Assembly (NCBI GenBank): GCA_946413815.1
Contig: CAMKMD010000010.1
Coordinates: forward strand, 1-64,000
Length of the DNA stretch: 64,000 nucleotides
Source of the DNA: an uncultured Ruminococcus sp.
GTDB lineage: Bacteria; Bacillota; Clostridia; Oscillospirales; Ruminococcaceae
Direction: 5' to 3'
The notes beneath the pieces were generated by a model, which saw only the letters and a list, made by a program, of their open reading frames with translations, did not search any database and was not told where the DNA came from. The stretch's first letter is position 1; each line of letters begins with the position of its first letter. Below, in pieces: positions 7,678 to 61,452 of the stretch. Made by a program: the position numbers and the translations under genes.

Positions 7678-7752
7678 TGGGGCATAGCCAAGCGGTAAGG
7701 CAACAGACTTTGACTCTGTCACTCGTGGGTTCAAATCCCGCTGCCCCAGCCA
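7678..7752 (+). tRNA. tRNA-Gln (anticodon TTG)
   Basis: The acceptor stem tggggca (7678-7684) pairs with tgcccca (7742-7748), followed by discriminator G and an encoded CCA. The anticodon stem acaga/tctgt holds the loop ctTTGac, so it reads CAA/CAG. The T arm has the expected ggttcaaatc loop sequence. Length is 75 bases with CCA. It lies 41 bases upstream of the dCMP deaminase gene and may share its promoter. Confidence 0.95.
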
Positions 7753-8354: not shown

Positions 8355-8383
8355 TTGACAAACCGGTACCCTGCGTGTATAAT
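8355..8383 (+). promoter_or_regulatory. Consensus sigma-A promoter of the cohesin-like lipoprotein
   Basis: TTGACA (8355-8360), exactly 17 bases, then TATAAT (8378-8383): a perfect consensus, suggesting strong constitutive expression. The leader is about 95 bases long. Confidence 0.85.
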
Positions 8384-8484: not shown

Positions 8485-9495
8485 ATGAAGAATATCACAA
8501 AAAGAATAATTGCAGTCGGTGCTCTTCTCAGCATCGTCATGACTTCGGCAACAGGCTGTAGTTCCGTAAGAAGACACACCAACTCTTCAAGCGAGACTCC
8601 CACTGCTGAAGCTCCTATGCTTGAAATGCCCCTCGAGTTCATAGATCCCGACGAGAACAGCGATAATCCTCTCAGCGAATACGACATAGACCTTACCGGC
8701 GATGATCCGGTGGCTGAGGATACTACTCAGGTCGTTGTTGAGAACGCTACAGACTATATCAAGGTAACTGACGACAAGGGTCAGCCCGTTACAGAGGTAC
8801 AGCAGGCTACTCAGGCAGACGGCCAGCCCGCTACCGAGATCCAGAAGATGACTGAGCCCGACGGCCAGCCCGCTACTGACGAGAACGGCGAGCAGAAGAC
8901 ACAGGTAGTCAACGCTACAGTTGTTGTTGAGAAGACTCAGGTCGTTAACGTAACAGATGCTGACGGACAGATCGTAACTCAGGTATCCAACAGCACAGTT
9001 ACAACTGCTGCAAACAGCTATACTCCCAAGCAGAAGAGCCGTTACGCTATGTGGCTCGACATCTCCGAGGACAAGAACTTCTTCTTCGAGGGTCAGTTCC
9101 TGAAGTACACCTTCAAGGTCAAGGACGGCATCCCGGACGGCGATTACAAGATCAAGCTTGCTCCTGACTTCTCAGACGTTACAGGTACTTCTGTATACGC
9201 TGACAAGGTGATCGATGGTGTTATCCGTGTAAACAACGGTTCTGTCGAGAAGGTAGATGTTGCTTCCGAGACAGGTCTCATCGTTTACGGTGACAGCGTT
9301 GCCTGCAAGCAGGGCGATACAGTTGACCTCTACGTAAGCATCAAGAACAACTCCGGTATCGTTGCCTTCGTTATGAAGTTATACTACGACGGAAACGCTC
9401 TGGAGCTCGTAAACAACGGCGCTGCCGGCGAGTTCGAGGAGATCTCCTCCAAGAAGACTGACTTCGGTGAGGCTAACAACAACAGCAACAACTGA
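8485..9495 (+). CDS. Lipoprotein with permuted cohesin-like halves
   Basis: This 336-residue protein has a lipoprotein signal peptide (lipobox SATGC, C25), so it should be anchored to the outer face of the membrane. Residues 26-80 are acidic and low in complexity. About 85-170 holds imperfect DGQPATE/TQVV-type repeats, a likely spacer. Residues 186-245 (FLKYTFKVKDGIPDGDYKI then DFSDV and DGVIRV) read like the second half of a cohesin beta-sandwich. Residues 260-310 (GDTVDLYVSIKNNSGIVAF then MKLYYDGNALELV) read like a cohesin first half. The halves are thus in reverse order and the protein ends soon after. It stands alone between its own consensus promoter and terminator. It could be a circularly permuted cohesin, the scar of a deletion between two cohesins, or an unrelated beta-sandwich. 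The lipoprotein call is firm and the cohesin relation is inference. Confidence 0.6.
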   Translation: MKNITKRIIAVGALLSIVMTSATGCSSVRRHTNSSSETPTAEAPMLEMPLEFIDPDENSDNPLSEYDIDLTGDDPVAEDTTQVVVENATDYIKVTDDKGQPVTEVQQATQADGQPATEIQKMTEPDGQPATDENGEQKTQVVNATVVVEKTQVVNVTDADGQIVTQVSNSTVTTAANSYTPKQKSRYAMWLDISEDKNFFFEGQFLKYTFKVKDGIPDGDYKIKLAPDFSDVTGTSVYADKVIDGVIRVNNGSVEKVDVASETGLIVYGDSVACKQGDTVDLYVSIKNNSGIVAFVMKLYYDGNALELVNNGAAGEFEEISSKKTDFGEANNNSNN

Positions 9496-9513: not shown

Positions 9514-9543
9514 CAGCCGCATCCTTCGGGGTGCGGCTTTTTT
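9514..9543 (+). terminator. Terminator after the cohesin-like lipoprotein
   Basis: Stem agccgca/tgcggct with a ttcggg loop region, followed by tttttt. Confidence 0.85.
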
Positions 9544-40971: not shown

Positions 40972-43755
40972 ATGAATGACAAAAAGAGAGGGATGCGCTT
41001 TATCAGCCTTTCCGCAGCGGCAGCCTGCCTGCTCGGTTCGCTGAATATCGCTCCGCTGGAGATCATGGAGGTCTCAGCGGCAGACAAGAGCGCATTTACT
41101 ATCACACAGGAAATGAAGATCGGCTGGAATCTCGGCAACACCCTTGATTCCTACAGCGATACCGCAAGCGGCCTTGCTACTGAGACCAGCTGGGGCAACC
41201 CGAAGACCACAAAGGCCATGATCGATGCAGTCAAGGCAAAGGGCTTCAATACGGTACGTGTGCCTACCACCTGGTTCCAGCATCTTGACGGCGACAACAA
41301 CATCGACTCCGCCTGGATGGCAAGAGTCAGAGAGGTAGTTGACTACGCAATCGATAATGATATGTACGTCATACTTAACCTCCACCACGAGAACTGGATC
41401 GACAGAGCCGACCTGGGCACAGCATACAGCGAGATGAAGCCGAAATTCATAAAGGTATGGACACAGATCGCTACGGAATTCAAGGACTATGACCAGCATC
41501 TTATCCTCGAATCCATGAACGAGCCGAGAGCCAAGGGTACAGACCACGAATGGTGGGGACCTCAGCAGTCCGAAGTCGATACCATCAACAAGCTCAACGC
41601 CGATTTCGTAAACACAGTCAGAAGCATAGATTCCCCCTACAAGGATTCAAGGCTCCTTATGATACCCGGCTACTGTGCATCTGCCGATTCAACGATGTTC
41701 TCAAAGATCACAGTTCCGCAGGATCAGTTCGTCGCAGTATCAATACACGCCTATATCCCGTATGATTTCACTATGAATACAGCAGTAAGCGACCACAGCA
41801 CATTTACGGAGTCCTACTCCGCAAACCTTGAGCAGACATTCGAGAGCATCAGGAGCACCTTTATCGCAAAGAATATCCCCGTTGTCATCGGTGAGTTCGG
41901 CACCTCGAACTTCAACAATACCGAGGCAAGAGTAAAGTGGGCTGACAAGTATATCTCCACCACTTCAAAAATCGGTATCCCCTGTGTTCTCTGGGACAAC
42001 AACGTTATCAAGTCTGCCACATCCCCCGGTGAATGTCACGGCTATCTCAACAGAAGCAGCCTTACATGGTACTCCGAGAGCGAGCCTGTAGTAGACAAGA
42101 TGATGGAAGTCCTCGGCATCAGTTCCTCTTCATGGGGCGGAGAAAAAGAGGGCGCAAAGTATGATCACGCCGATCTCTCTACAGGAGAGATACTCTCCGA
42201 CAAGAAGACCACCATCAACGCCGCAGACGAGCCAGACGGCAACTGTGCTCTCTTTGACGGCTACTGGACTCCCGAAGAGGGCGGCGAGGTCGCTGTAAAG
42301 TATACCGGTGATGCTCCCGTGCTTGCTGTCGTTGATTCCGAATGGGACAACTGGACAGAGATAAAGCCCTACAGCGACGAGAACGGTGTTGCCTACTACT
42401 CCGCAAAGAATATCCTTGCTGCATGGAGCGGCAGCGCTGATGATATAGCCCATTACTTCGTAAGAACTAACGGCTCCACCACTATCGAGCTGGCAGTTGC
42501 GTTGGGCGGCAGCTCTTCTTCACAGCCTCCGGCTGACACCCCCTCACAGACACCGCAGTCATCAGGCGCAGGCTTCCATGTATCCGGACAGAAGATACTC
42601 GATGCCAACGGAAATGAATTCATCATGCGCGGTATCAACGTAGCTCACGCCTGGTATCAGAGCAACACACAGCAGACCCTGAAGGCAGCCGCTGCAAAGG
42701 GCTGCAATACAGTCCGCGTGGTATGCGCAGACGGCGGTCAGTGGACAAAGACCTCCGCATCAGAGCTGAAGAAGATAATCGGCTGGTGCAAGGAGAACAA
42801 GCTCGTATGCGTGCTTGAAGCACACGACGCTACAGGAAGCGATAATATCTCCGATGTAGTCGCAGCTGCAAAGTACTGGGCTGAAATGAAGGACATACTC
42901 AACGAGAACAAAGACTATGTCATACTCAATATCGCCAACGAATGGGTCGGCACCTGGGACAGCAGCACCTGGGCACAGGGCAATCAGCAGGCTATCAAGG
43001 TAGTCCGCGATGCCGGCATAAAGAACATGATAATGATAGATGCGGCAGGCTGGGGACAGTATGCCAACGCTGTCAAGGAACAGGGCAAGAATGTATTCAA
43101 TTCCGACCCTGACAAGAACACTGTATTCTCCATCCACTTCTACGGCACAGCCGGAAAGGATGCAAATACCATAAAGAACAATATCGACGGCGCACTCTCT
43201 GCCGGCGCTCCGGTGCTTGCAGGAGAATTCGGCTACAACCACAGCGACGGCGACGTAGACGAGGCTTACCTGATGAGCTACTGCGACGAGAAGGGCCTCG
43301 GCTACCTTGCATGGTCATGGAAGGGCAACGGAGGCGGTGTAGAGTACCTCGACCTTGTAAATGACTGGGACGGCAACAGCCTCACAGAATGGGGACAGAT
43401 ATTCTTCGGCGCTATGAAGGGCTCAAAGCCTGCCTCTGTATACACAGAGGGAGTTTCCTCACAGCCTGCAACAGAGCCCCCCACACAGCCCACACAGCCT
43501 CCTACACAGCCTACACAGCCCGTGACCGTTCCTACAGTTCCGACAGCTGTCAAGCTGGGCGATGCAAACTGCGATGGTATTATCAATGTCGCTGACGCCG
43601 TAGCTATCCTCCAGTTCGTTGCAAACCAGTCCAAGTACCCTCTCGGCGAGGATGGCGCAAGGAATGCTGACTGCGACGGTGTGGCAGGTATCACAGGCGG
43701 CGATGCTACAGCAGTACAGAAGTACGATGCGGGTCTCATCCGTTCCTTCAGCTAA
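40972..43755 (+). CDS. Bifunctional cellulase-mannanase: GH5_4, GH5_8, dockerin
   Basis: This 927-residue secreted enzyme has a signal peptide (about 1-36) and two GH5 catalytic domains. The first (about 40-385) is of the GH5_4 endoglucanase type, with acid/base E184 in ESMNEP and nucleophile E308 in VIGEFG. A beta-sandwich of about 120 residues (395-515) with tryptophans in FDGYWTPEEGG and DSEWDNWTEI may be a carbohydrate-binding module. The second domain (about 530-815) is of the GH5_8 mannanase type: MRGINVAHAWYQ, E657 in NIANEW, HFYGTAG and E752 in AGEFGYNHSDGDVDE. A threonine/proline linker leads to a dockerin (863-927). Start follows GGGAGG. It should act on cellulose or xyloglucan and on mannans. 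Confidence 0.92.
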   Translation: MNDKKRGMRFISLSAAAACLLGSLNIAPLEIMEVSAADKSAFTITQEMKIGWNLGNTLDSYSDTASGLATETSWGNPKTTKAMIDAVKAKGFNTVRVPTTWFQHLDGDNNIDSAWMARVREVVDYAIDNDMYVILNLHHENWIDRADLGTAYSEMKPKFIKVWTQIATEFKDYDQHLILESMNEPRAKGTDHEWWGPQQSEVDTINKLNADFVNTVRSIDSPYKDSRLLMIPGYCASADSTMFSKITVPQDQFVAVSIHAYIPYDFTMNTAVSDHSTFTESYSANLEQTFESIRSTFIAKNIPVVIGEFGTSNFNNTEARVKWADKYISTTSKIGIPCVLWDNNVIKSATSPGECHGYLNRSSLTWYSESEPVVDKMMEVLGISSSSWGGEKEGAKYDHADLSTGEILSDKKTTINAADEPDGNCALFDGYWTPEEGGEVAVKYTGDAPVLAVVDSEWDNWTEIKPYSDENGVAYYSAKNILAAWSGSADDIAHYFVRTNGSTTIELAVALGGSSSSQPPADTPSQTPQSSGAGFHVSGQKILDANGNEFIMRGINVAHAWYQSNTQQTLKAAAAKGCNTVRVVCADGGQWTKTSASELKKIIGWCKENKLVCVLEAHDATGSDNISDVVAAAKYWAEMKDILNENKDYVILNIANEWVGTWDSSTWAQGNQQAIKVVRDAGIKNMIMIDAAGWGQYANAVKEQGKNVFNSDPDKNTVFSIHFYGTAGKDANTIKNNIDGALSAGAPVLAGEFGYNHSDGDVDEAYLMSYCDEKGLGYLAWSWKGNGGGVEYLDLVNDWDGNSLTEWGQIFFGAMKGSKPASVYTEGVSSQPATEPPTQPTQPPTQPTQPVTVPTVPTAVKLGDANCDGIINVADAVAILQFVANQSKYPLGEDGARNADCDGVAGITGGDATAVQKYDAGLIRSFS

Positions 43756-47653: not shown

Positions 47654-50020
47654 TTATTCTGCTTCCTGTGCAACTACAAGCTTTCTGAGGAATACCTCAT
47701 CGAAGCTGTCAACTCTTCCGTCGCCGTTGAAATCGAACTGGTCAGCTATCTCCTTGGAATCGAAATCAGCTATACCGAGCAGCATACGGTTAAGGCGTAC
47801 AAGATGTGCGGCCTTGTATCTCTTGGCAGGTGTTGTGCCGTCGGGCTCAGTACCGCCTATGAGCTTGCCGCTTGCGTATACGCATACGTTATCGCACTTC
47901 TCCGCAAGCTCAACACCGCCGACGATATCGTCGTAATCGCCCTCGAGCTCCTTGATGCCCTTGCGGCTCCAGTCATTGGTGCTGTCCCACTTGTCGCCGT
48001 AGTACATACCGATGATGAGCTGATACTTCTTGTTGGAATTGGCTATAGCGTAGCCGTCCCATGATATCTCAACATAGTAGATATCGTCCTTGTACTGCTT
48101 CGGCTGGGAGAGAGTTGCTGACTTGTCAGCCACCTCGGTCTCCACCTGATCGTAGGTCTTCTGGAGAACGAAGCTGCCGGGGATGCCGGAATTGTTCTCG
48201 AATTCCTTGATGCTGAAATAGTAGCGGATGGAGATATCATCATGGGGCTCAAGTGAATCGGTGTTCACGAAGAATGTCAGCTTGGTAACGCCTGCGCCTG
48301 TGGACTCCGGTGAATCCTGACAGTAGCCTGCAACCCAGAAGCTGTCGCCGGCAAAGATCTGTGTATCATCCTGCTTTTCAGCGGGGGGGAAGTTGGGCTC
48401 CGCCTTCATGGAGGAGTCGCCGTACCTTGCATAGAGTCCGGCAGAAGCGCCTGTGAATGCGGCGTTGTAGTCGATGGTTACCTCGTTGTATACCCAGTCA
48501 GCCGTTGTATCGCTGTGGTTGTCAGCCTGATCGGGGCCGCCTGCGAGAGCGCCCCAGAGTACGTGCTTCTGCTCGCCCGGATCCTCAGCCATGGTAAGGC
48601 CGGATGCGGCACGGTGATGGGGGTACTTTACTGCGTTGTCCGAATATCCTACAACATAGCATCGGTCAAGGGGATTGTCGCCGAGGATGTATTCCATCTG
48701 TCCCTTTGCCCAGTCAGAGAAGCAGTAATCCGGGTTCTTGTCGTTGTATCTGTCCTTGCCCTTCTGATACTTGTCGTATACCAGAGCACAGAACTGAGCG
48801 GCTGTATTGTATCGGCAGCTGCCCCACTTGTCGAAGAAGAGGTATCCGCCGGCAGAGTATTTGCCCTTCTCGCCGTCACGGTAGGCATTGAGCGCCTTGG
48901 CCTCCATGTACCAGAAGTCTATATCCTCATAGGGATTGCGTCCGGCTGCTGTGCGGTATTCCTCGCATACCTCAGGGTATTCGTCCTGTATGCGGCCGAG
49001 GAGTATGGAAACGCCGTTCCACATATCGTTCCAGCAGAACACATATCCCGGAGGTGCATAGTAGTCAACATAGGGCAGGCAGGCCTCGAGGTAATCGTGA
49101 TCCTTTGTTATGAGGTAGAGCCAGCAGGCTGCAAAGGAATAATCGTCCTCCCACTTGCTTGAGGTATAGAAGCTCGCAGGACCATCTCCGCCCTTGCCGA
49201 CGCCCTTCTCGTTCCTTTCTGCGAACTCGAAGAGAGCCTTTGCGTAGTCGAGGCACTTGTCTGCATACTCCTTGTCTGTGTCTTTGAAGTTGAGGTAGTT
49301 GATAGCAAGAGCGGCAGCACTCTCGGAAACGTCATCCGTGGTCGGGAGATCGTCCGTTGCGAACCATGCAGGTCTTGCCATTGCATCTATCTCGGGAGAC
49401 TGCCAGTAGCTGTGGTCGATAGCGCCGTCGCCTACCTGATAGCAGAAGGCTATTACCTTACCGGACTTGTCGCGGAAGGTGGAGCGCATGAAGTAGTCGC
49501 AGAAATGACGGCATATAGTCTCGATGTGCTCTGTCTGCTCTGCTGCCTCGTATGAATCACGGAACTCATAGTAGCCCCATGATACGGCAGATGCGGCATA
49601 GGCCTCCGGAAGGCCGAATTTTACGTGGTCGCCCGCATCGTGATATCCGCCCGATACGTCAACAGTGCCGTCGCCGTCCGGGTCGAGTATGTCCTTGTAT
49701 TTTGCAATGAATGCCTCGGAAAGGTTAGTTCCCACCGACTGCTCATCCATCGGTCTCAGCGGCACCTTTGCATCATATACGTGGCAGTTGCCTCTCCACG
49801 GGAGCCGGTTCTTGCCCTCAACGTCAGTACCGCACATATTCGCATCGTAGAAGTGCAGCGAGTACTGCAGCAGCTTCGCCCAGTTCGCATCAACTTCATG
49901 ATACTCAGCTACATCGGCCTGTGCCGGGCCGGCAGCTACAGCCGGTATCGAGCCCGGCAAGGCAGACACAAGTGTGGCTGCTCCCGCTGCTAAAGCGGTC
50001 ATCCTTTTGTATATCTTCAT
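47654..50020 (-). CDS. Secreted GH9 cellulase with CBM3c and degenerate dockerin
   Basis: This 788-residue secreted enzyme has a signal peptide (about 1-30) and a GH9 domain (about 40-525) with the base motif GYHDAGDHVKF, the PHHRAASG histidine motif and the catalytic glutamate in YNEVTIDYNAAF. A CBM3c-like module (about 535-690; FRYYF-type SIRYYFSIKEF and DDIYYVEISWDG, NDWSRKG) is the usual partner of processive GH9 endoglucanases. The last 55 residues look like a dockerin that has kept one calcium loop (FDFNGDGRVDSFDE) while the first loop is lost. Start at 50020 follows GGAGG by five bases. It has its own promoter and leader hairpin and is transcribed alone. Confidence 0.9.
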   Translation of the reverse strand: MKIYKRMTALAAGAATLVSALPGSIPAVAAGPAQADVAEYHEVDANWAKLLQYSLHFYDANMCGTDVEGKNRLPWRGNCHVYDAKVPLRPMDEQSVGTNLSEAFIAKYKDILDPDGDGTVDVSGGYHDAGDHVKFGLPEAYAASAVSWGYYEFRDSYEAAEQTEHIETICRHFCDYFMRSTFRDKSGKVIAFCYQVGDGAIDHSYWQSPEIDAMARPAWFATDDLPTTDDVSESAAALAINYLNFKDTDKEYADKCLDYAKALFEFAERNEKGVGKGGDGPASFYTSSKWEDDYSFAACWLYLITKDHDYLEACLPYVDYYAPPGYVFCWNDMWNGVSILLGRIQDEYPEVCEEYRTAAGRNPYEDIDFWYMEAKALNAYRDGEKGKYSAGGYLFFDKWGSCRYNTAAQFCALVYDKYQKGKDRYNDKNPDYCFSDWAKGQMEYILGDNPLDRCYVVGYSDNAVKYPHHRAASGLTMAEDPGEQKHVLWGALAGGPDQADNHSDTTADWVYNEVTIDYNAAFTGASAGLYARYGDSSMKAEPNFPPAEKQDDTQIFAGDSFWVAGYCQDSPESTGAGVTKLTFFVNTDSLEPHDDISIRYYFSIKEFENNSGIPGSFVLQKTYDQVETEVADKSATLSQPKQYKDDIYYVEISWDGYAIANSNKKYQLIIGMYYGDKWDSTNDWSRKGIKELEGDYDDIVGGVELAEKCDNVCVYASGKLIGGTEPDGTTPAKRYKAAHLVRLNRMLLGIADFDSKEIADQFDFNGDGRVDSFDEVFLRKLVVAQEAE

Positions 50021-50047
50021 GTTTTCCTCCTTTGGCATCAGCCTCGT

Positions 50048-52788: not shown

Positions 52789-55620
52789 TCAGTTTTCAGT
52801 ATAGGCGGAAATATTCATCGTACCGCCCGTGGATATATAGGTATAGTAGCCGAGTATCGCCGTGGCATCGGCAGCGTTTATCTGTCCGTCCACATTCACG
52901 TCTGATACAAGTGTCTTTCTCTCGTCAAAGCTGCTGCCGGTGCTGACCGACATGAGGGAATACTCATCAAGGAGCATGGAAGCATCAGCGGAGGTTATAA
53001 ATCCGTCGCCGTCAACATCTCCCATCTTCAGCCTGCTCTTCTCCATGCGTGACATTGCAGCCGCAAGGTCTCCGGCAGAGGCCCTTCCGTTAAAGTCAAG
53101 GTCCGCCTTGATATCATACGTGTCCCCGGAGAGGAGTCTCTCGCGGATAGCCCTGATATCCTCATTGTCAAGGTCGCCGTCACTGTCCATATCGCCCATT
53201 ACGTCCTTGCATTCCGGAAGCTCCTCACTCTGGAAGGAGTGCAGGGATGAAGGCTTCCCCAGTTTCCAGGTCTTGTGGTCGCCGCCGATAAGGTGCAGCT
53301 CGGCATCAGAGCGCAGGAACCAGTATTCGCTGCCCTCCGAGTCGTCCCAGGTAGTATCTATGTGGAAAGCCTTTCCATCCAGCATAGCAACGTTCCATGA
53401 ATGGATATTGTTCTCAACGAACCAGCTGTCTATGCCGGCAGCATTGAGAAGGAGGTTGAATGTCCTTGAATATCCCTCACATACTGCCACGCCGTCCATG
53501 AATACAGCTACATCCACATGATTTGCCGGGTCTTCAAGGTCAGTCTTTGCATAGGTGGTATTATCGCAAATCCAGTCATGGAGAGCCTTTGCCTTCTCGA
53601 TATCGGACATGGTGTCGTCCGTGACCTCTGCCACCACTTCCTTTGCCTTGTTCTTTACGAAGTCGTCAATGAAGCCCACATTCTCAGCGCCGCCGAAATA
53701 CCTGCGGACGAAATCATCGAGCTCCTCAGTGAATCCGGCAGAATCGCCATTTACCACCCGGATGCCGTTTATCGTTCTGAGCTTCGTACAGCCATCGAAG
53801 GAATCCGGCGCAAGCTCAGGCTCCTCGTCAAAATCGAAGCTTTCCAGCGAAGTACATAATGAGAAGGCATTCGGACCGATCTTGTGCTTTCCGCTCAGAG
53901 TAACTGTTTCAAGAGCCGGATTTTCCATGAAGGCGTTGCCGCCTACAGCAACATCTCCGCCTATCTTCACGCTTTTAAGGTTCGGGCAGCACCTTACAGC
54001 AGCAAAGTCTATCAGTGAACAGTTGCTGCCGAGTTCAAGGCTCTTTATGCCTGTTTGGCTGAGTGCGTTCTCGCCTATGCGTATCTCCTTTATATCGGGA
54101 GAGAAGTTCAGCTCTGTGAGAGTAGGCAGTTCAACCAGAGCGCTGATCGTCAGATCAACGCAGTCGCCTGCCCCGAAGCTTATGGATTCTATCTTTCCGC
54201 TCACGCAGTGATTGCCGAGCTTGCAGTTTCCGGGGAACTTTATTTCCTTTATTCCCGTATCCCAGAAGACATGGCCGTCAAGCTCTATGGTATCGCTCTC
54301 TATAGTAACGCTTTCAAGATTTCTGCACCCATTGAAGGCGAAGGAGCCTATCTTTTTGATGTTCTCCGGTATCGTTATTTCTCTGAGGCGCAAGCTTTCT
54401 GCCAGACAGAAGCTCGGTATTTCGGAAGCAGCCTTCGGGAAAACAACTTTTTCGATCGTGCTGTATCCGAACTTAGGCATGGTGGTCAGATTTTCCGAGA
54501 ATCTTAACTCCCTGATCATGCTATACTCATCAGTGGTATCCTGGTCATAATATACCCTCGGAAGGATGGAATATGCCGTCGGGAAATCATAGTATACCGG
54601 AATGCCGTTGAACTCCTCCGGAAATTCAACTATCTCATCATTTCCGTTATACTCCGTTATCTTTGCAGTAACGCTGAGATCGTTGTGCAGTGTAAAAATA
54701 ACAGTCCAGTCTCCCACATACATCTGTATCTCGGTACCCCTGCAGTTCATTCCGTAATACTCCACGAATTTGTCTTCAAATGGTGTATCGTCAAATGCCG
54801 TTCCCGATATACCGATAATGCTGTCAGGAAGCACCACTTCCTTCAGTTTCGTGCATCTGTCGAAGCAGCAGTCCGGTATGAACCGTACACCGTCAGGAAT
54901 AACTGCCTTTGTGATATCTGAATCACAGAAAGCACACTGTTCAATTTCACAAATTGTATCCGGCAGAGTCACACTTTCAAGCACACCTGAATAGGCAAAG
55001 CAATCTGCCCCGATGACCCTGACTTCTGCTCCGGCCACCTTTTCCGGAACAACGGCATTAATCTTTTTAGAGACATAATGTCCGTCAACGAGCTCCATGA
55101 ATTCGTCGTCGAAGTCACCTCCATAATAATTATCTGGTTTTCCGTCTCCGTTATAATCAAATTCTGATCTCTGATACTGGTATCTGCTGTTGATAAGCGA
55201 AAGTCCGTTTTCCCCGCCCATTTCTGTCCGGGCGAAGCTGTAGGTGATAGTACCATCTATCGCCAGATCGATATGATATACATCACTGAATTCAAGCAGA
55301 TTGCCGTCGAAGCTTATGTTCTCGTCCGGCAGAGTGATACTGGAAACCTTCTGATTACAGTTATCAAAGATATGCGCTGATACCTCGGTGACCTTCGTCA
55401 TGACGATATCATAGGGAATGCTTACATCTGTATTTTTGCCTGTATACTCTACCAGCTTCACGCCGTCTTCGGTCTTTTCGTATATCCAGTCCAGATACGC
55501 ATACCGCGCCCCCGCCGCACTTGCCTGATATGGCTGTACAAAGCCGGAAATATTCCCGCCGAAGCCTGTCATTATGACTGCAAGAGCAGCTATACCGGCA
55601 ATTATCCTCTTTCTGTCCAT
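52789..55620 (-). CDS. LRR-transglutaminase protein with double dockerin, copy 2
   Basis: This 943-residue secreted protein has a signal peptide (about 1-35), BspA-type leucine-rich repeats over about 50-660, then a transglutaminase-like domain (about 660-800) with a complete triad C714 (GVAVCEGYS), H740 (HSWNV) and D755 (HIDTTWDD). Two dockerin modules follow in tandem: 809-870 (GDMDSDGDLDNED, ADLDFNGRASAGD) and 872-940 (GDVDGDGFITSAD, SDVNVDGQINAAD). The second is like the dockerin of the giant LRR protein at 15713. The start at 55620 follows GGAGGG. It lies 32 bases after its paralogue and 11 bases before the esterase gene. It may crosslink or cleave proteins at the cell surface; this is inference, since such domains can be transglutaminases or proteases. 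Confidence 0.87.
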   Translation of the reverse strand: MDRKRIIAGIAALAVIMTGFGGNISGFVQPYQASAAGARYAYLDWIYEKTEDGVKLVEYTGKNTDVSIPYDIVMTKVTEVSAHIFDNCNQKVSSITLPDENISFDGNLLEFSDVYHIDLAIDGTITYSFARTEMGGENGLSLINSRYQYQRSEFDYNGDGKPDNYYGGDFDDEFMELVDGHYVSKKINAVVPEKVAGAEVRVIGADCFAYSGVLESVTLPDTICEIEQCAFCDSDITKAVIPDGVRFIPDCCFDRCTKLKEVVLPDSIIGISGTAFDDTPFEDKFVEYYGMNCRGTEIQMYVGDWTVIFTLHNDLSVTAKITEYNGNDEIVEFPEEFNGIPVYYDFPTAYSILPRVYYDQDTTDEYSMIRELRFSENLTTMPKFGYSTIEKVVFPKAASEIPSFCLAESLRLREITIPENIKKIGSFAFNGCRNLESVTIESDTIELDGHVFWDTGIKEIKFPGNCKLGNHCVSGKIESISFGAGDCVDLTISALVELPTLTELNFSPDIKEIRIGENALSQTGIKSLELGSNCSLIDFAAVRCCPNLKSVKIGGDVAVGGNAFMENPALETVTLSGKHKIGPNAFSLCTSLESFDFDEEPELAPDSFDGCTKLRTINGIRVVNGDSAGFTEELDDFVRRYFGGAENVGFIDDFVKNKAKEVVAEVTDDTMSDIEKAKALHDWICDNTTYAKTDLEDPANHVDVAVFMDGVAVCEGYSRTFNLLLNAAGIDSWFVENNIHSWNVAMLDGKAFHIDTTWDDSEGSEYWFLRSDAELHLIGGDHKTWKLGKPSSLHSFQSEELPECKDVMGDMDSDGDLDNEDIRAIRERLLSGDTYDIKADLDFNGRASAGDLAAAMSRMEKSRLKMGDVDGDGFITSADASMLLDEYSLMSVSTGSSFDERKTLVSDVNVDGQINAADATAILGYYTYISTGGTMNISAYTEN

Positions 55621-55652
55621 AATAATCCCTCCTTGTCTGTCACAATACGATG

Positions 55653-58529
55653 TCATCTGTTTTCTGTATAGGCGGCAATATTATCCGTTCCGCCCGTGGA
55701 AATATATGTGTAGTATGCAAGTATCGCTGAGGCGTCAACGGCATTTACCTGACCGTCAACATTCACATCGGCGATAAGAGACTCTCTTTCACTGAAGGTC
55801 TTTCCGCTGCTCACTGACATGAGTGAATACTCCTCAAGGAGGAGTGAGGCATCTGCGGAGGTGATAAGGCCGTCGCGGTCAACATCCCCCATTCTGAGTC
55901 CCGGCGAATCGAGCCTTATAACAGCCTCTGCAAGATCGCCCGCACCGGCCTTTCCGTTGAAATCAAGATCTGCCCTCAGTTCATAAGCCGCTCCATTGAT
56001 GAGCCTCTCACGAAGCTCGCCGAGGTCTGCCGTATCAAGATCATCATCGCCGTCAAGGTCGCCCATGAAATAATCGCAGACAGGCAGATCATCCTTCTGG
56101 AAGGAATGCCAGTCAGAACAGATATCCGCATACCAGAGCTCATGGTCTTCGCCCGACTTCTTCATCTCCTTGTCAGTACGCATGAACCAGTCATAGCTAT
56201 CATGTGTATCGTCCCATGTTGTATCGATATGGAAGGCCTTTCCGTCGATCATGACAACGTTCCAGGAATGATTGGAATTGGTAACGAACCAGCTCTTCAC
56301 GCCGGCCTCGTTGAGCAGAAGGTTATACAGTCTTGCATATCCCTCGCATACAGCAACGCCGTCCATCAGCAGTGCAGAGTCGGTGTGGTTCCCGCGTGCC
56401 GCAAGGTCATCCTTTGCATACTCAGCATTAGCACATATCCAGTCGTGAAGAGCCTTCGCCTTCCCGAGATCGGACATATCATCGCTGACAGTCTCAGCAA
56501 CTATCTTCTTCAGACTGTTCCTGATATACTTATCAATAAATCCCGTTCCCTCAGCTCCGTCAAAAGCACTGCGGACAAAGCTGTCAAGCTCCGGAACAAA
56601 TCCTGTGCCGTCCGCAGTGAGGACCTCTTCGCCGTTTAACCTGTAAAGAGAAGAGCAGCCATTGAATGCCGTCACGTCTATCTCAGAAGCTGTATCAAGA
56701 ACGATATTGCTGAGAGCCTTGCAGTCCGCAAAGGCCTTGCTCTCTATGACAGGGGTGCCGGTCAGCTCTATGCTTTCCAGGCTTTCATTGTTCATGAAGG
56801 ACTCATAGCCGATACGTGCATTGCCTCTCAGTTTGAAGTGCTTCAGCTCTTTGCAGTCCTTGAATGCCGAATGGCTTATATCCTTAACATTGCTGCCGAG
56901 CTCCAGCTCCTCCAGTCCTGAATTGCTGAAGGCACTGTCCCCGATATATATTTCCCTGATATCCGGAGAGAACACAATTTTTTTCAGATCCTTTGCCCCC
57001 GCCAGTGACTCGACGCCGAGCTCGACCTTGTCTCCGGCGCGGATGGTAAGATCCTCAACACTGTCACAGAAGCATCCTTTGCCTGTCATAAGGTTTCCCG
57101 GGAGCTCCAGAGACCTGACAGCCGTACCGCAAAGGCTGTCCCATCCGAGCCATAAGCTGTCGCTCTCAACGATGAATTCCGAAAGGTTCTCGCAGTCCTG
57201 AAAGGCGCCGGGTTCTATTACTTTTACTGCCCGCGGTATAGTCACCGAGGTCAGCTTCCTGCATCCGCTGAATGTATTGATCTCTATCGTCGTAACTCCG
57301 GGGGGGATGTCTATCTTTTCGATATTGCTATCCCTGAGAAGCGGCAGCCAGTCCATGTCCTCCGGGAAACGTATCTCTTTTACAAAATCACTGTCCGAAA
57401 GGATCCCTTCACGATTGAACTCATAATTATAGTAAGAAAACCCGGTGTTGTCTTCTTCATAATCCGAGTAAGAGATTTCACACGTATTCTCCTCAACAGG
57501 CAGACCGTCTATCTCCGAAGGGAAATCCACGACCGTATCCCGGCCGAGATATTTTACCGGAGTCACAATCAGGCGCAGGTCGTCCGTATAATTATAGAAC
57601 AGTCTCCAGTCGCCCGAATCAGCTAAGGTCTCCGCTCCGTTTCCCGTCACATCATGGCCGTAGGGAATGGAAGCGGATTTTTCAAATATGGTATTGCGGA
57701 AGGCATTGTCGCTGACAGCGATAAGGTCGTCAGGAAGCTTCACCTCTTTCAGTTCTTCGCATTCAGCAAAGCAGCGGTCAGGAATGAAACGGATGCCCTT
57801 TCCTATACTGACAGAGGTAACGGTCGACTCCATGAAGCAGCAGTCACGGATAATATGCAGGGTATCAGGAAGTGTGACCTTATTTACCACCTCTGCATTT
57901 CTGAATCCGGAGCCCAGTTCGTAAACATCCACTCCGCAAACAGTTGCAGGCACGGTGATATCCACCTTTCCCTTTATCTGATACTTTCCGTCCACCAGTT
58001 CACAGTACTTTTCCCTGAAATTCCTCTCCTCCTGGGTCATTATCAATTTTCCCCAGTCATTCTCTTTATACATCTTCTCCCGCTCTTCAAAATCATCAAG
58101 GTAGAGCTGTTTGTAGTGTATTGTCCATACGTTTGCTTCCTGCGAATAACGGCAGACAGAATAATCCGGCAGATCGATCTCGTATACCCTGCTGTGGTCG
58201 AGAATATTACCGTCAAATCTTATAGTTTCGTCGTCAATATTGACAATACCGCATTCGCTCTGATCCTCAAGTATACCTGCCGATACCTCAACGACCTTCT
58301 GCCCCTCGTACTCAGACGGTATAGTAATCTCGGAGAACTGATAGTCACTCTTAACTTTCAGGAGCTTTATACCGCCGCTCACCTTTTCGTATTCCCAGCT
58401 GTAGCCTTCGACCTGATAATTCACCGCATCAGCCTTAAAGAGCGGTGCGCCGGAAGGCATTGCCATGCCGGAAGCAGATATTGCCGTTAAAAGTGCGGCA
58501 ATTCCTGCTATTATTCTTTTGCTGTCCAT
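55653..58529 (-). CDS. LRR-transglutaminase protein with double dockerin, copy 1
   Basis: This 958-residue paralogue of the next gene has the same plan: signal peptide, BspA-type repeats (about 40-675), transglutaminase-like domain with C728, H754 and D769, and two tandem dockerins (about 825-885 and 888-955; GDLDGDDDLDTAD, ADLDFNGKAGAGD, GDVDRDGLITSAD, ADVNVDGQVNAVD). The signal peptides of both copies begin with nearly the same MDxKRIIAGIAAL words, and the C-terminal third is much more alike than the LRR part, so the repeats have diverged while the enzyme and dockerins were kept. The start follows GGAGGG. It is the first gene of a probable four-gene operon reaching to the ABC-F gene. Confidence 0.87.
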   Translation of the reverse strand: MDSKRIIAGIAALLTAISASGMAMPSGAPLFKADAVNYQVEGYSWEYEKVSGGIKLLKVKSDYQFSEITIPSEYEGQKVVEVSAGILEDQSECGIVNIDDETIRFDGNILDHSRVYEIDLPDYSVCRYSQEANVWTIHYKQLYLDDFEEREKMYKENDWGKLIMTQEERNFREKYCELVDGKYQIKGKVDITVPATVCGVDVYELGSGFRNAEVVNKVTLPDTLHIIRDCCFMESTVTSVSIGKGIRFIPDRCFAECEELKEVKLPDDLIAVSDNAFRNTIFEKSASIPYGHDVTGNGAETLADSGDWRLFYNYTDDLRLIVTPVKYLGRDTVVDFPSEIDGLPVEENTCEISYSDYEEDNTGFSYYNYEFNREGILSDSDFVKEIRFPEDMDWLPLLRDSNIEKIDIPPGVTTIEINTFSGCRKLTSVTIPRAVKVIEPGAFQDCENLSEFIVESDSLWLGWDSLCGTAVRSLELPGNLMTGKGCFCDSVEDLTIRAGDKVELGVESLAGAKDLKKIVFSPDIREIYIGDSAFSNSGLEELELGSNVKDISHSAFKDCKELKHFKLRGNARIGYESFMNNESLESIELTGTPVIESKAFADCKALSNIVLDTASEIDVTAFNGCSSLYRLNGEEVLTADGTGFVPELDSFVRSAFDGAEGTGFIDKYIRNSLKKIVAETVSDDMSDLGKAKALHDWICANAEYAKDDLAARGNHTDSALLMDGVAVCEGYARLYNLLLNEAGVKSWFVTNSNHSWNVVMIDGKAFHIDTTWDDTHDSYDWFMRTDKEMKKSGEDHELWYADICSDWHSFQKDDLPVCDYFMGDLDGDDDLDTADLGELRERLINGAAYELRADLDFNGKAGAGDLAEAVIRLDSPGLRMGDVDRDGLITSADASLLLEEYSLMSVSSGKTFSERESLIADVNVDGQVNAVDASAILAYYTYISTGGTDNIAAYTENR

Positions 58530-60720: not shown

Positions 60721-61452
60721 TTATCCTCTTTTCCTGAGATATGCCTCTATTACCGGACGCGCCTCTGCAAATCTCAGAGGCAGGCCGTGACCGCAGGCGA
60801 GCCATTCCGGCGAAATCTCCAGTATGCGCCTCAATGAATCCTGCATCTCCTCAATGCTCACGGCATGAGGCGTGATATCCGGATGCTTCCACAGCGCCGT
60901 GAATGCGTCACCGCAGTAAAGCACCTTTCCGCTCAGGATCCCCGCCGAACCATAGGTATGCCCCGGAAGCGGAACTATCTCCGCCGGATATCCCAGCTCT
61001 GCAAGTATCCCCTCACCGCTGCCGGTGAAATAAATATCCGCCTTATATGCCGGGCTCCTGAAAATGCTTCCGTTCATCCACTGCGTGAGATTGCGCAGGA
61101 AGTATTTCGGATGTGTCGGCTTTACAGGCTGAGACATGAAATGCCTGTTAAGTCCTCTGTCCCGCTCGCTGAGTATTATCTCCGCCCCCTTCGCCTGAAG
61201 TCCGGCCGCATTCCAGTCATGGTCAGCATGAGCATGGGTAAGGAAGATATGCTTTATGCGGTAATCCTCCAGCCATTTTCCAAGCCCTCTGCGTATCTGA
61301 AAAAGTCCCGTATCTATAAGAAGGTCTCCCCTCTTGCCTCTTAATATATAGCAGGTCATGCCCCCCTGTGCATAGTAGCGTATGCCGCCGAGAGGCTTTT
61401 CCCGGTCAGTCACCGCCGGCATGAGCCTGTTGATCATCCATATCCTGTCCAT
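60721..61452 (-). CDS. Metallo-beta-lactamase-fold hydrolase
   Basis: This 243-residue cytoplasmic protein has the metallo-beta-lactamase fold. The metal ligands are in LTHAHADHDWN (HxHxDH), in LPGHTYGSAG, in the aspartate of YCGDAFTA and in ACGHGLP. This arrangement suits thioesterase, glyoxalase II-like or lactonase functions. It has its own promoter and terminator and no informative neighbour, so its substrate cannot be inferred. Confidence 0.82.
   Translation of the reverse strand: MDRIWMINRLMPAVTDREKPLGGIRYYAQGGMTCYILRGKRGDLLIDTGLFQIRRGLGKWLEDYRIKHIFLTHAHADHDWNAAGLQAKGAEIILSERDRGLNRHFMSQPVKPTHPKYFLRNLTQWMNGSIFRSPAYKADIYFTGSGEGILAELGYPAEIVPLPGHTYGSAGILSGKVLYCGDAFTALWKHPDITPHAVSIEEMQDSLRRILEISPEWLACGHGLPLRFAEARPVIEAYLRKRG

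Follow-up and report, generated by a model that had tools for sequence, protein, structure and literature searches.

Cohesins are modules that normally grip plant-digesting enzymes by binding dockerins. In Ruminococcus flavefaciens FD-1, group-4 dockerins, which have Gly-Arg at their recognition sites, are bound by ScaE, a cohesin at the cell surface, as well as by ScaG and ScaH; the FD-1 screen left out cohesins deemed too divergent, found no partner for 24 cloned dockerins and saw no binding for most dockerins of leucine-rich repeat (LRR) proteins (PMC5301203). Known cohesins bind through their 8-3-6-5 sheet, and a helix after strand 4 is described for cohesins other than ScaA and ScaB of FD-1 (PMC5429695). 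In addition, each R. flavefaciens strain has between one and three proteins in which a single cohesin is fused to a region of unknown function (PMC4081043). Here we analyzed a lipoprotein gene at positions 8485-9495 of a 64,000-nucleotide stretch of DNA from an uncultured Ruminococcus sp. (the whole stretch is called the window), whose C-terminal domain resembles a cohesin with its two halves exchanged. The gene and the two halves are located as follows.

8485..9495, plus strand: lipoprotein gene (P0001), 336 amino acids, from the translation of the open reading frame (ORF) and 155 homologues at E ≤ 0.001.
9019..9255, plus strand: residues 179-257 make up the second cohesin half, comprising strands 5-9, with predicted strands at 183-192, 203-212, 219-230 and 241-249.
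9256..9492, plus strand: residues 258-322 make up the first cohesin half, comprising strands 1-4 and the helix that follows them, with a tail to residue 336; predicted strands at 266-274, 279-287, 294-302 and 306-313 and a predicted helix at 315-322.

The 155 relatives came from a protein search, and those among the 120 listed that had a readable source name were each a 'hypothetical protein' of Ruminococcus. An alignment of 120 rows (A2) was made from P0001 and 119 of these 120, leaving out the 99% identical P0002. When sequences were read in their native order, 54 of the 120 rows matched the Pfam Cohesin profile at E ≤ 0.01; the window protein was not among the 54, and in a six-frame genome search it gave a Cohesin match of 28.3 bits over profile positions 7-71. 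Ten relatives picked for a precomputed Cohesin label were then scanned in native order, with the best stretch per protein displayed, and all ten passed the Pfam cut-off. The best stretch placed profile positions 46, 47 or 56 to 126-139 on earlier residues in three of them and profile positions 7-11 to 51-56 on later residues in the other seven, and six of the ten had two Cohesin stretches. The preliminary description of this DNA had proposed cohesin-like halves in swapped order on a lipoprotein, and had named in advance a profile search with the order restored as a test. With residues 258-336 placed ahead of 179-257, that search returned one Cohesin match of 38.8 bits for the window protein, over positions 7-137 of the 139 in the profile, and a single continuous match in 10/10 members tested, nine covering at least positions 11-135 and one covering 10-120, all ten over the curated Pfam cut-off.

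A permutation scan, in which a profile built from 34 canonical cohesins of the window's genome and related genomes was used to score every circular shift (five long-branch canonical domains and three canonical lipoproteins being excluded from this training set), placed the best cut at most 15 residues from the junction in 120/120 members. The mean score rose from 23.5 to 48.4 bits, and the window protein, at 27.9 bits in native order, reached 57.1 bits. As controls, the three canonical lipoproteins peaked at shifts 0, 0 and 3, and 40 shuffled sequences reached at most 5.3 bits, far below the family. The canonical strand order of Cohesin (PF00963) was thus absent throughout, and because the best cut lies at the junction and not at the native ends, the domain is classed as a circularly permuted homologue and not as a canonical cohesin. 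Searches against PDB chains pointed the same way: a profile of 10 restored domains matched 4dh2 at E 1.4e-5 and 3kcp at E 0.0081 (positions 18-150), against 0.0026 and 0.094 for the native full-length profile of 120 rows, a comparison that is supporting only, because the profiles were built from different rows and have different lengths. Five of the six rows at E ≤ 1 for the restored-domain profile were cohesins, the sixth being an unrelated chain at E 0.57. The nearest chain by profile, 4dh2, is entitled 'cellulosome anchoring protein cohesin region' and is presumably from C. thermocellum. Together, the restored-order matches and the permutation scan bear out the proposal of the preliminary description, and on these profile comparisons the domain is a real, conserved and circularly permuted cohesin.

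As to the nine-stranded jelly roll of cohesins, the AlphaFold2 model shows a confident, compact beta domain over residues 181-320, with a predicted local distance difference test score (pLDDT) of 92-98, and includes the helix after strand 4. A sequence-order structure alignment of the model listed no cohesin among 50 rows, the aligner being blind to permutation; because such an aligner cannot show a permuted match, this absence was not counted against membership. All 50 rows shown began at residue 42-51, and in the model a predicted strand at 47-53 seems to pack on the C-terminal domain. By alignment rather than coordinates, strand 3 would point residues 294, 296, 298 and 300 outward; these are conserved mostly as A, C/V, W and Y, and the clade of the window protein has Lys at residue 298, a pattern that would fit a conserved binding site with changed specificity.

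Ahead of the domain lie the parts of the protein listed below, and ahead of the gene a promoter.

8485..8559, plus strand: signal peptide and lipobox, residues 1-25, with predicted lipidation at Cys25; the lipobox was judged by eye, and C25 is invariant in 120/120 rows.
8614..8643, plus strand: conserved segment, residues 44-53, with the predicted strand 47-53, from conservation and pLDDT blocks of 83 and 80.
8647..9018, plus strand: repeat-rich spacer, residues 55-178, with VTD/PVTEV-type repeats and low to middling pLDDT.
8355..8383, plus strand: sigma-70 type promoter TTGACA-N17-TATAAT, matching the consensus at 12/12 positions with a 17-base spacer.

The lipobox and the repeat-rich spacer were both found as first described. 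Cys25 is one of eleven invariant columns of alignment A2, and the signal peptide with its lipobox cysteine marks the protein as a bacterial lipoprotein. No ScaE-type sortase signal was seen by eye: past residue 322 the protein ends in a short polar tail without an LPxTG-like end. The perfect consensus promoter, likewise claimed beforehand, was confirmed and recurs in the family, since 57 of the 62 members with sufficient upstream sequence have a perfect promoter with a spacer of 17, where near-identical rows were retained and related rows are not independent. This count used loci L031-L095 and dropped members that lacked 260 bases upstream, scored below 100 or lay on the minus strand. The best promoter in 62 shuffled upstream regions had two mismatches, and among other ORFs of the same loci a perfect promoter with a spacer of 16-18 preceded 59 of 630, a figure that mechanical ORF starts may lower. 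The same perfect TTGACA-N17-TATAAT also precedes two further genes of the window, starting at 61452 (minus strand) and 40972 (plus strand), at -79 and -208, respectively. Given its strong and conserved promoter, the permuted-cohesin lipoprotein may be abundant, also at the surface, and its expression may be high and constitutive.

We also determined how the family is distributed. Scanning GTDB genomes yielded 65 loci, including ones in R. flavefaciens FD-1, MC2020, XPD3002 and YRD2003 and in R. callidus ATCC 27760. Two contigs titled Alistipes (L057 and L072) bear this Ruminococcus family as well and are probably mislabelled bins. Within the same family-level group, 27 of 197 genomes matched the profile at E ≤ 1e-5 and, by hand reading, 17 carry the C-terminal domain; the genome lists were made by hand, and the ten genomes not counted (G002, G022, G037, G059, G083, G089, G120, G143, G173 and G191) have spacer-only, canonical-looking, short or contig-cut matches. 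Of the 25 dockerin-rich genomes, 17 have the permuted domain, against none of the 172 others (Fisher 7.7e-19; nine genus codes), a figure inflated by shared ancestry, with dockerin-rich meaning at least 20 dockerin matches among the matches listed (at most about 31), a cut set after the counts were known. Cohesin matches number no more than two or three in three of the 17 domain-carrying genomes (G027, G085 and G138), and in G027 and G085 the permuted cohesin is among these few. In another genome, a permuted copy was noted at 2186572-2187402 of contig C1 (G117). A candidate second copy in the window's own genome (C131, E 0.126) was rejected, as the ORFs there had no cohesin by eye, and the plasmid collection gave no match to the family, with the content of R. 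albus plasmids in that collection unchecked. A tree was built from 63 domains, of which 42 were canonical and 21 permuted (the latter with their order restored). Its backbone was unresolved; the permuted domains split into one group of 15 and one of 5, and the remaining one, from G106, paired with a canonical row at a support of 98/92. A constraint grouping all 21 permuted domains, as a single origin of the permutation would, was not rejected by the approximately unbiased (AU) test (p 0.12; 0.38 without G106).

Some relatives join the permuted domain to dockerins. In the relative from FD-1 (Contig53, 92-1024), the permuted cohesin comes after two dockerin-type repeats and no lipobox is seen by eye; P0122-P0143 combine a precomputed Dockerin label with the permuted domain in 22/22 cases. 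When ten proteins were rescanned, seven passed the Dockerin cut-off, two were weak and one had no match; in the native-order Cohesin scan of the seven, three passed, two fell below the cut-off and two had no match at E ≤ 0.05. By eye, both dockerin repeats read DGRDA in the FD-1 protein, P0122, P0123 and P0142, and the adaptors P0128, P0134, P0139 and P0140 have DGSDA in its place. In P0144 and P0147, which are perhaps a third architecture, a Big_2 domain and one dockerin-type repeat (below the Dockerin cut-off) precede a permuted cohesin-like domain. Canonical-order cohesin lipoproteins adjoin permuted ones at three loci (L017, L019 and L095), where the profile of restored permuted domains scored the canonical lipoproteins at 28.0, 36.7 and 30.1 bits; they rank with its best canonical matches, as do a multi-cohesin frame of G181 (35.9 bits) and L020 (34.0 bits). 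Tandem cohesin lipoproteins were observed too, mixing canonical and permuted domains at L017 469-3470 and L095 7850-10702, and wholly permuted at L086 8912-10897 and L043 9917-12414.

The preliminary description had taken the genome to be short of cohesins, and this did not hold. The window's genome gave 10 Cohesin matches at E ≤ 0.001 (11 at E ≤ 1), nine of the 10 lying outside the 8485-9495 gene. It also has a multi-cohesin scaffoldin frame as well as an orthologue of ScaC (5lxv, E 3.5e-42); it is a cellulosome genome and not a cohesin-poor one. As for the claim of nine dockerin proteins in the window, a Pfam Dockerin match was found in seven of ten scanned proteins (six over the cut-off), and two more, at 40972-43755 and 47654-50038, are dockerin-like by eye only. 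A canonical-order cohesin of this genome is matched at E 1.8e-54 by 4wkz, one of the PDB chains entitled 'Autonomous cohesin'. This cohesin, on contig C39 (L110, 154-831, minus strand), is borne by a 225-residue lipoprotein with a lipobox by eye, and because it sits on a lipobox protein, the standalone cohesin of this genome seems to be lipid-anchored. Elsewhere in the genome, a sca-like cluster (L107, 1984-10015, contig C25) holds the ScaC orthologue, a ScaA-like protein (by eye) and the large multi-cohesin scaffoldin frame, which reaches the contig edge and of which L109 (C28) looks by eye like the other end. At L108 (383-8110, contig C66), a 308-residue lipoprotein has a C-terminal canonical Cohesin match, and next but one to it stands a leucine-rich protein (by eye) of 1673 residues with an N-terminal Cohesin match.

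We read the window protein, with a probability of about 0.7, as a membrane-anchored, circularly permuted cohesin that would capture dockerin-bearing proteins or adaptors. We infer dockerin binding indirectly from the dockerin fusions and the link with dockerin-rich genomes. In the proposed mechanism, the chain opens between strands 4 and 5 of the usual cohesin fold, and a conserved linker of about 15 residues bridges the original ends at strands 9 and 1. Once exported, the protein would be lipidated at Cys25 and retained on the outside of the membrane, where the putative cohesin face (the 8-3-6-5 sheet) would capture one class of dockerin-bearing proteins or adaptors, the permutation presumably turning this face relative to the membrane tether. 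The partner of the permuted cohesin may be among the FD-1 dockerins without one. A broader proposal is that such proteins form a second, lipid-based anchoring system parallel to ScaE, constitutive and plentiful, which would supply the missing partner of some orphan dockerins and in which a tether on the strand 4/5 side would point the binding face away from the membrane in another orientation than in canonical cohesins; we offer this tentatively and would sooner doubt it than rely on it.

Other explanations were weighed against capture by a permuted cohesin. The halves could derive from two broken tandem cohesins, a second half followed by a first half, either completed between molecules by strand exchange or left as remnants. 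Multi-cohesin proteins of related genomes, such as the 662-residue frame of G181 C45, would give such a junction, and native and restored profiles score that frame equally well; yet the same boundaries are conserved across many relatives, the domain is compact at the pLDDT noted above, and both halves jointly cover nearly the whole Cohesin profile once, and we regard this origin as highly improbable. It is also conceivable, if unlikely, that the permuted fold no longer binds dockerins and instead binds carbohydrate or another cell-surface ligand in a CBM3-like way.

A further explanation accepts dockerin binding but not permanent anchoring: the cohesin would act on the membrane side as an escort or shuttle while dockerin proteins are exported and fold. 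A paper on a standalone cohesin reportedly suggests, by its title, a role of this kind. The single cohesin, the lipid anchor and the strong, recurring promoter would suit such an escort, as would the presence of another single-cohesin lipoprotein in the window's genome, and bound cohesin is known to stabilize dockerins expressed in E. coli (PMC5301203). These observations fit escort and anchoring alike; the dockerin-fused relatives suggest a structural adaptor, and we consider the escort role doubtful and keep capture at the membrane as the preferred reading.

The immediate surroundings of the gene add the following feature.

9515..9538, plus strand: intrinsic terminator-like hairpin followed by a T run, weak on its own because two such hairpins were found against 1.5 expected in shuffles.

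The gene is flanked by a deaminase-like gene (by eye), with a tRNA-Gln (ttg) just 5′ of it at window positions 7678-7752, and by a GH43-ricin-dockerin gene. Farther along, the window also holds two adjacent proteins (52789-58529) that combine LRR, transglutaminase-like and dockerin parts.

The permuted cohesin is shared by strains of R. flavefaciens, by R. callidus and by many relatives that are uncultured. Inventories built on whole cohesins would catch half a match or nothing. The family is a candidate partner for partnerless dockerins, its lipid anchor would offer a route alongside the sortase route, and the domain is a natural case of relocated ends in a binding module, which could be of use for designer cellulosomes.

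A literature search over titles and abstract openings found, among the papers listed, no report of a natural circular permutation of a cohesin, and the main texts of PMC5301203, PMC4081043, PMC2930009, PMC2721979, PMC11557425 and PMC12484212 mention no permuted cohesin, the sole mention of permutation, in PMC2721979, concerning enzyme modules. Some of the single-cohesin proteins described in PMC4081043 may belong to the permuted family. Set beside canonical cohesins (PF00963), the restored window domain covers nearly the whole profile and shares the helix after strand 4, but its strands 5-9 come before strands 1-4 and its ends lie between strands 4 and 5. The 'Autonomous cohesin' chains (4wkz and 4n2o), which we take to be ScaG of R. 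flavefaciens, and the C39 lipoprotein, with its lipobox by eye, resemble the window protein in having a single cohesin on a small protein, and differ from it in their canonical strand order and in lacking the VTD-repeat spacer. The standalone cohesin G binds group-4 dockerins, very weakly on microarrays and with support from enzyme-linked immunosorbent assay (PMC5301203). ScaE is a surface cohesin like the window protein, but is attached to the cell wall by sortase (PMC4081043), whereas the window protein has a lipobox. The adaptors ScaC, ScaF and ScaH combine a cohesin with a dockerin, and the FD-1 relative likewise joins dockerin repeats to one cohesin, although its dockerin repeats are N-terminal and its cohesin is permuted; the window protein itself has no dockerin. 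The canonical-order cohesin lipoproteins (P0193-P0197 and those at L017, L019 and L095) share the lipobox (by eye), the C-terminal cohesin and mostly the VTD-type spacer, and differ from the window protein by their canonical order. As to the suggestion of a new kind of anchoring device, a lipid-anchored single cohesin is not wholly new, given the canonical C39 lipoprotein.
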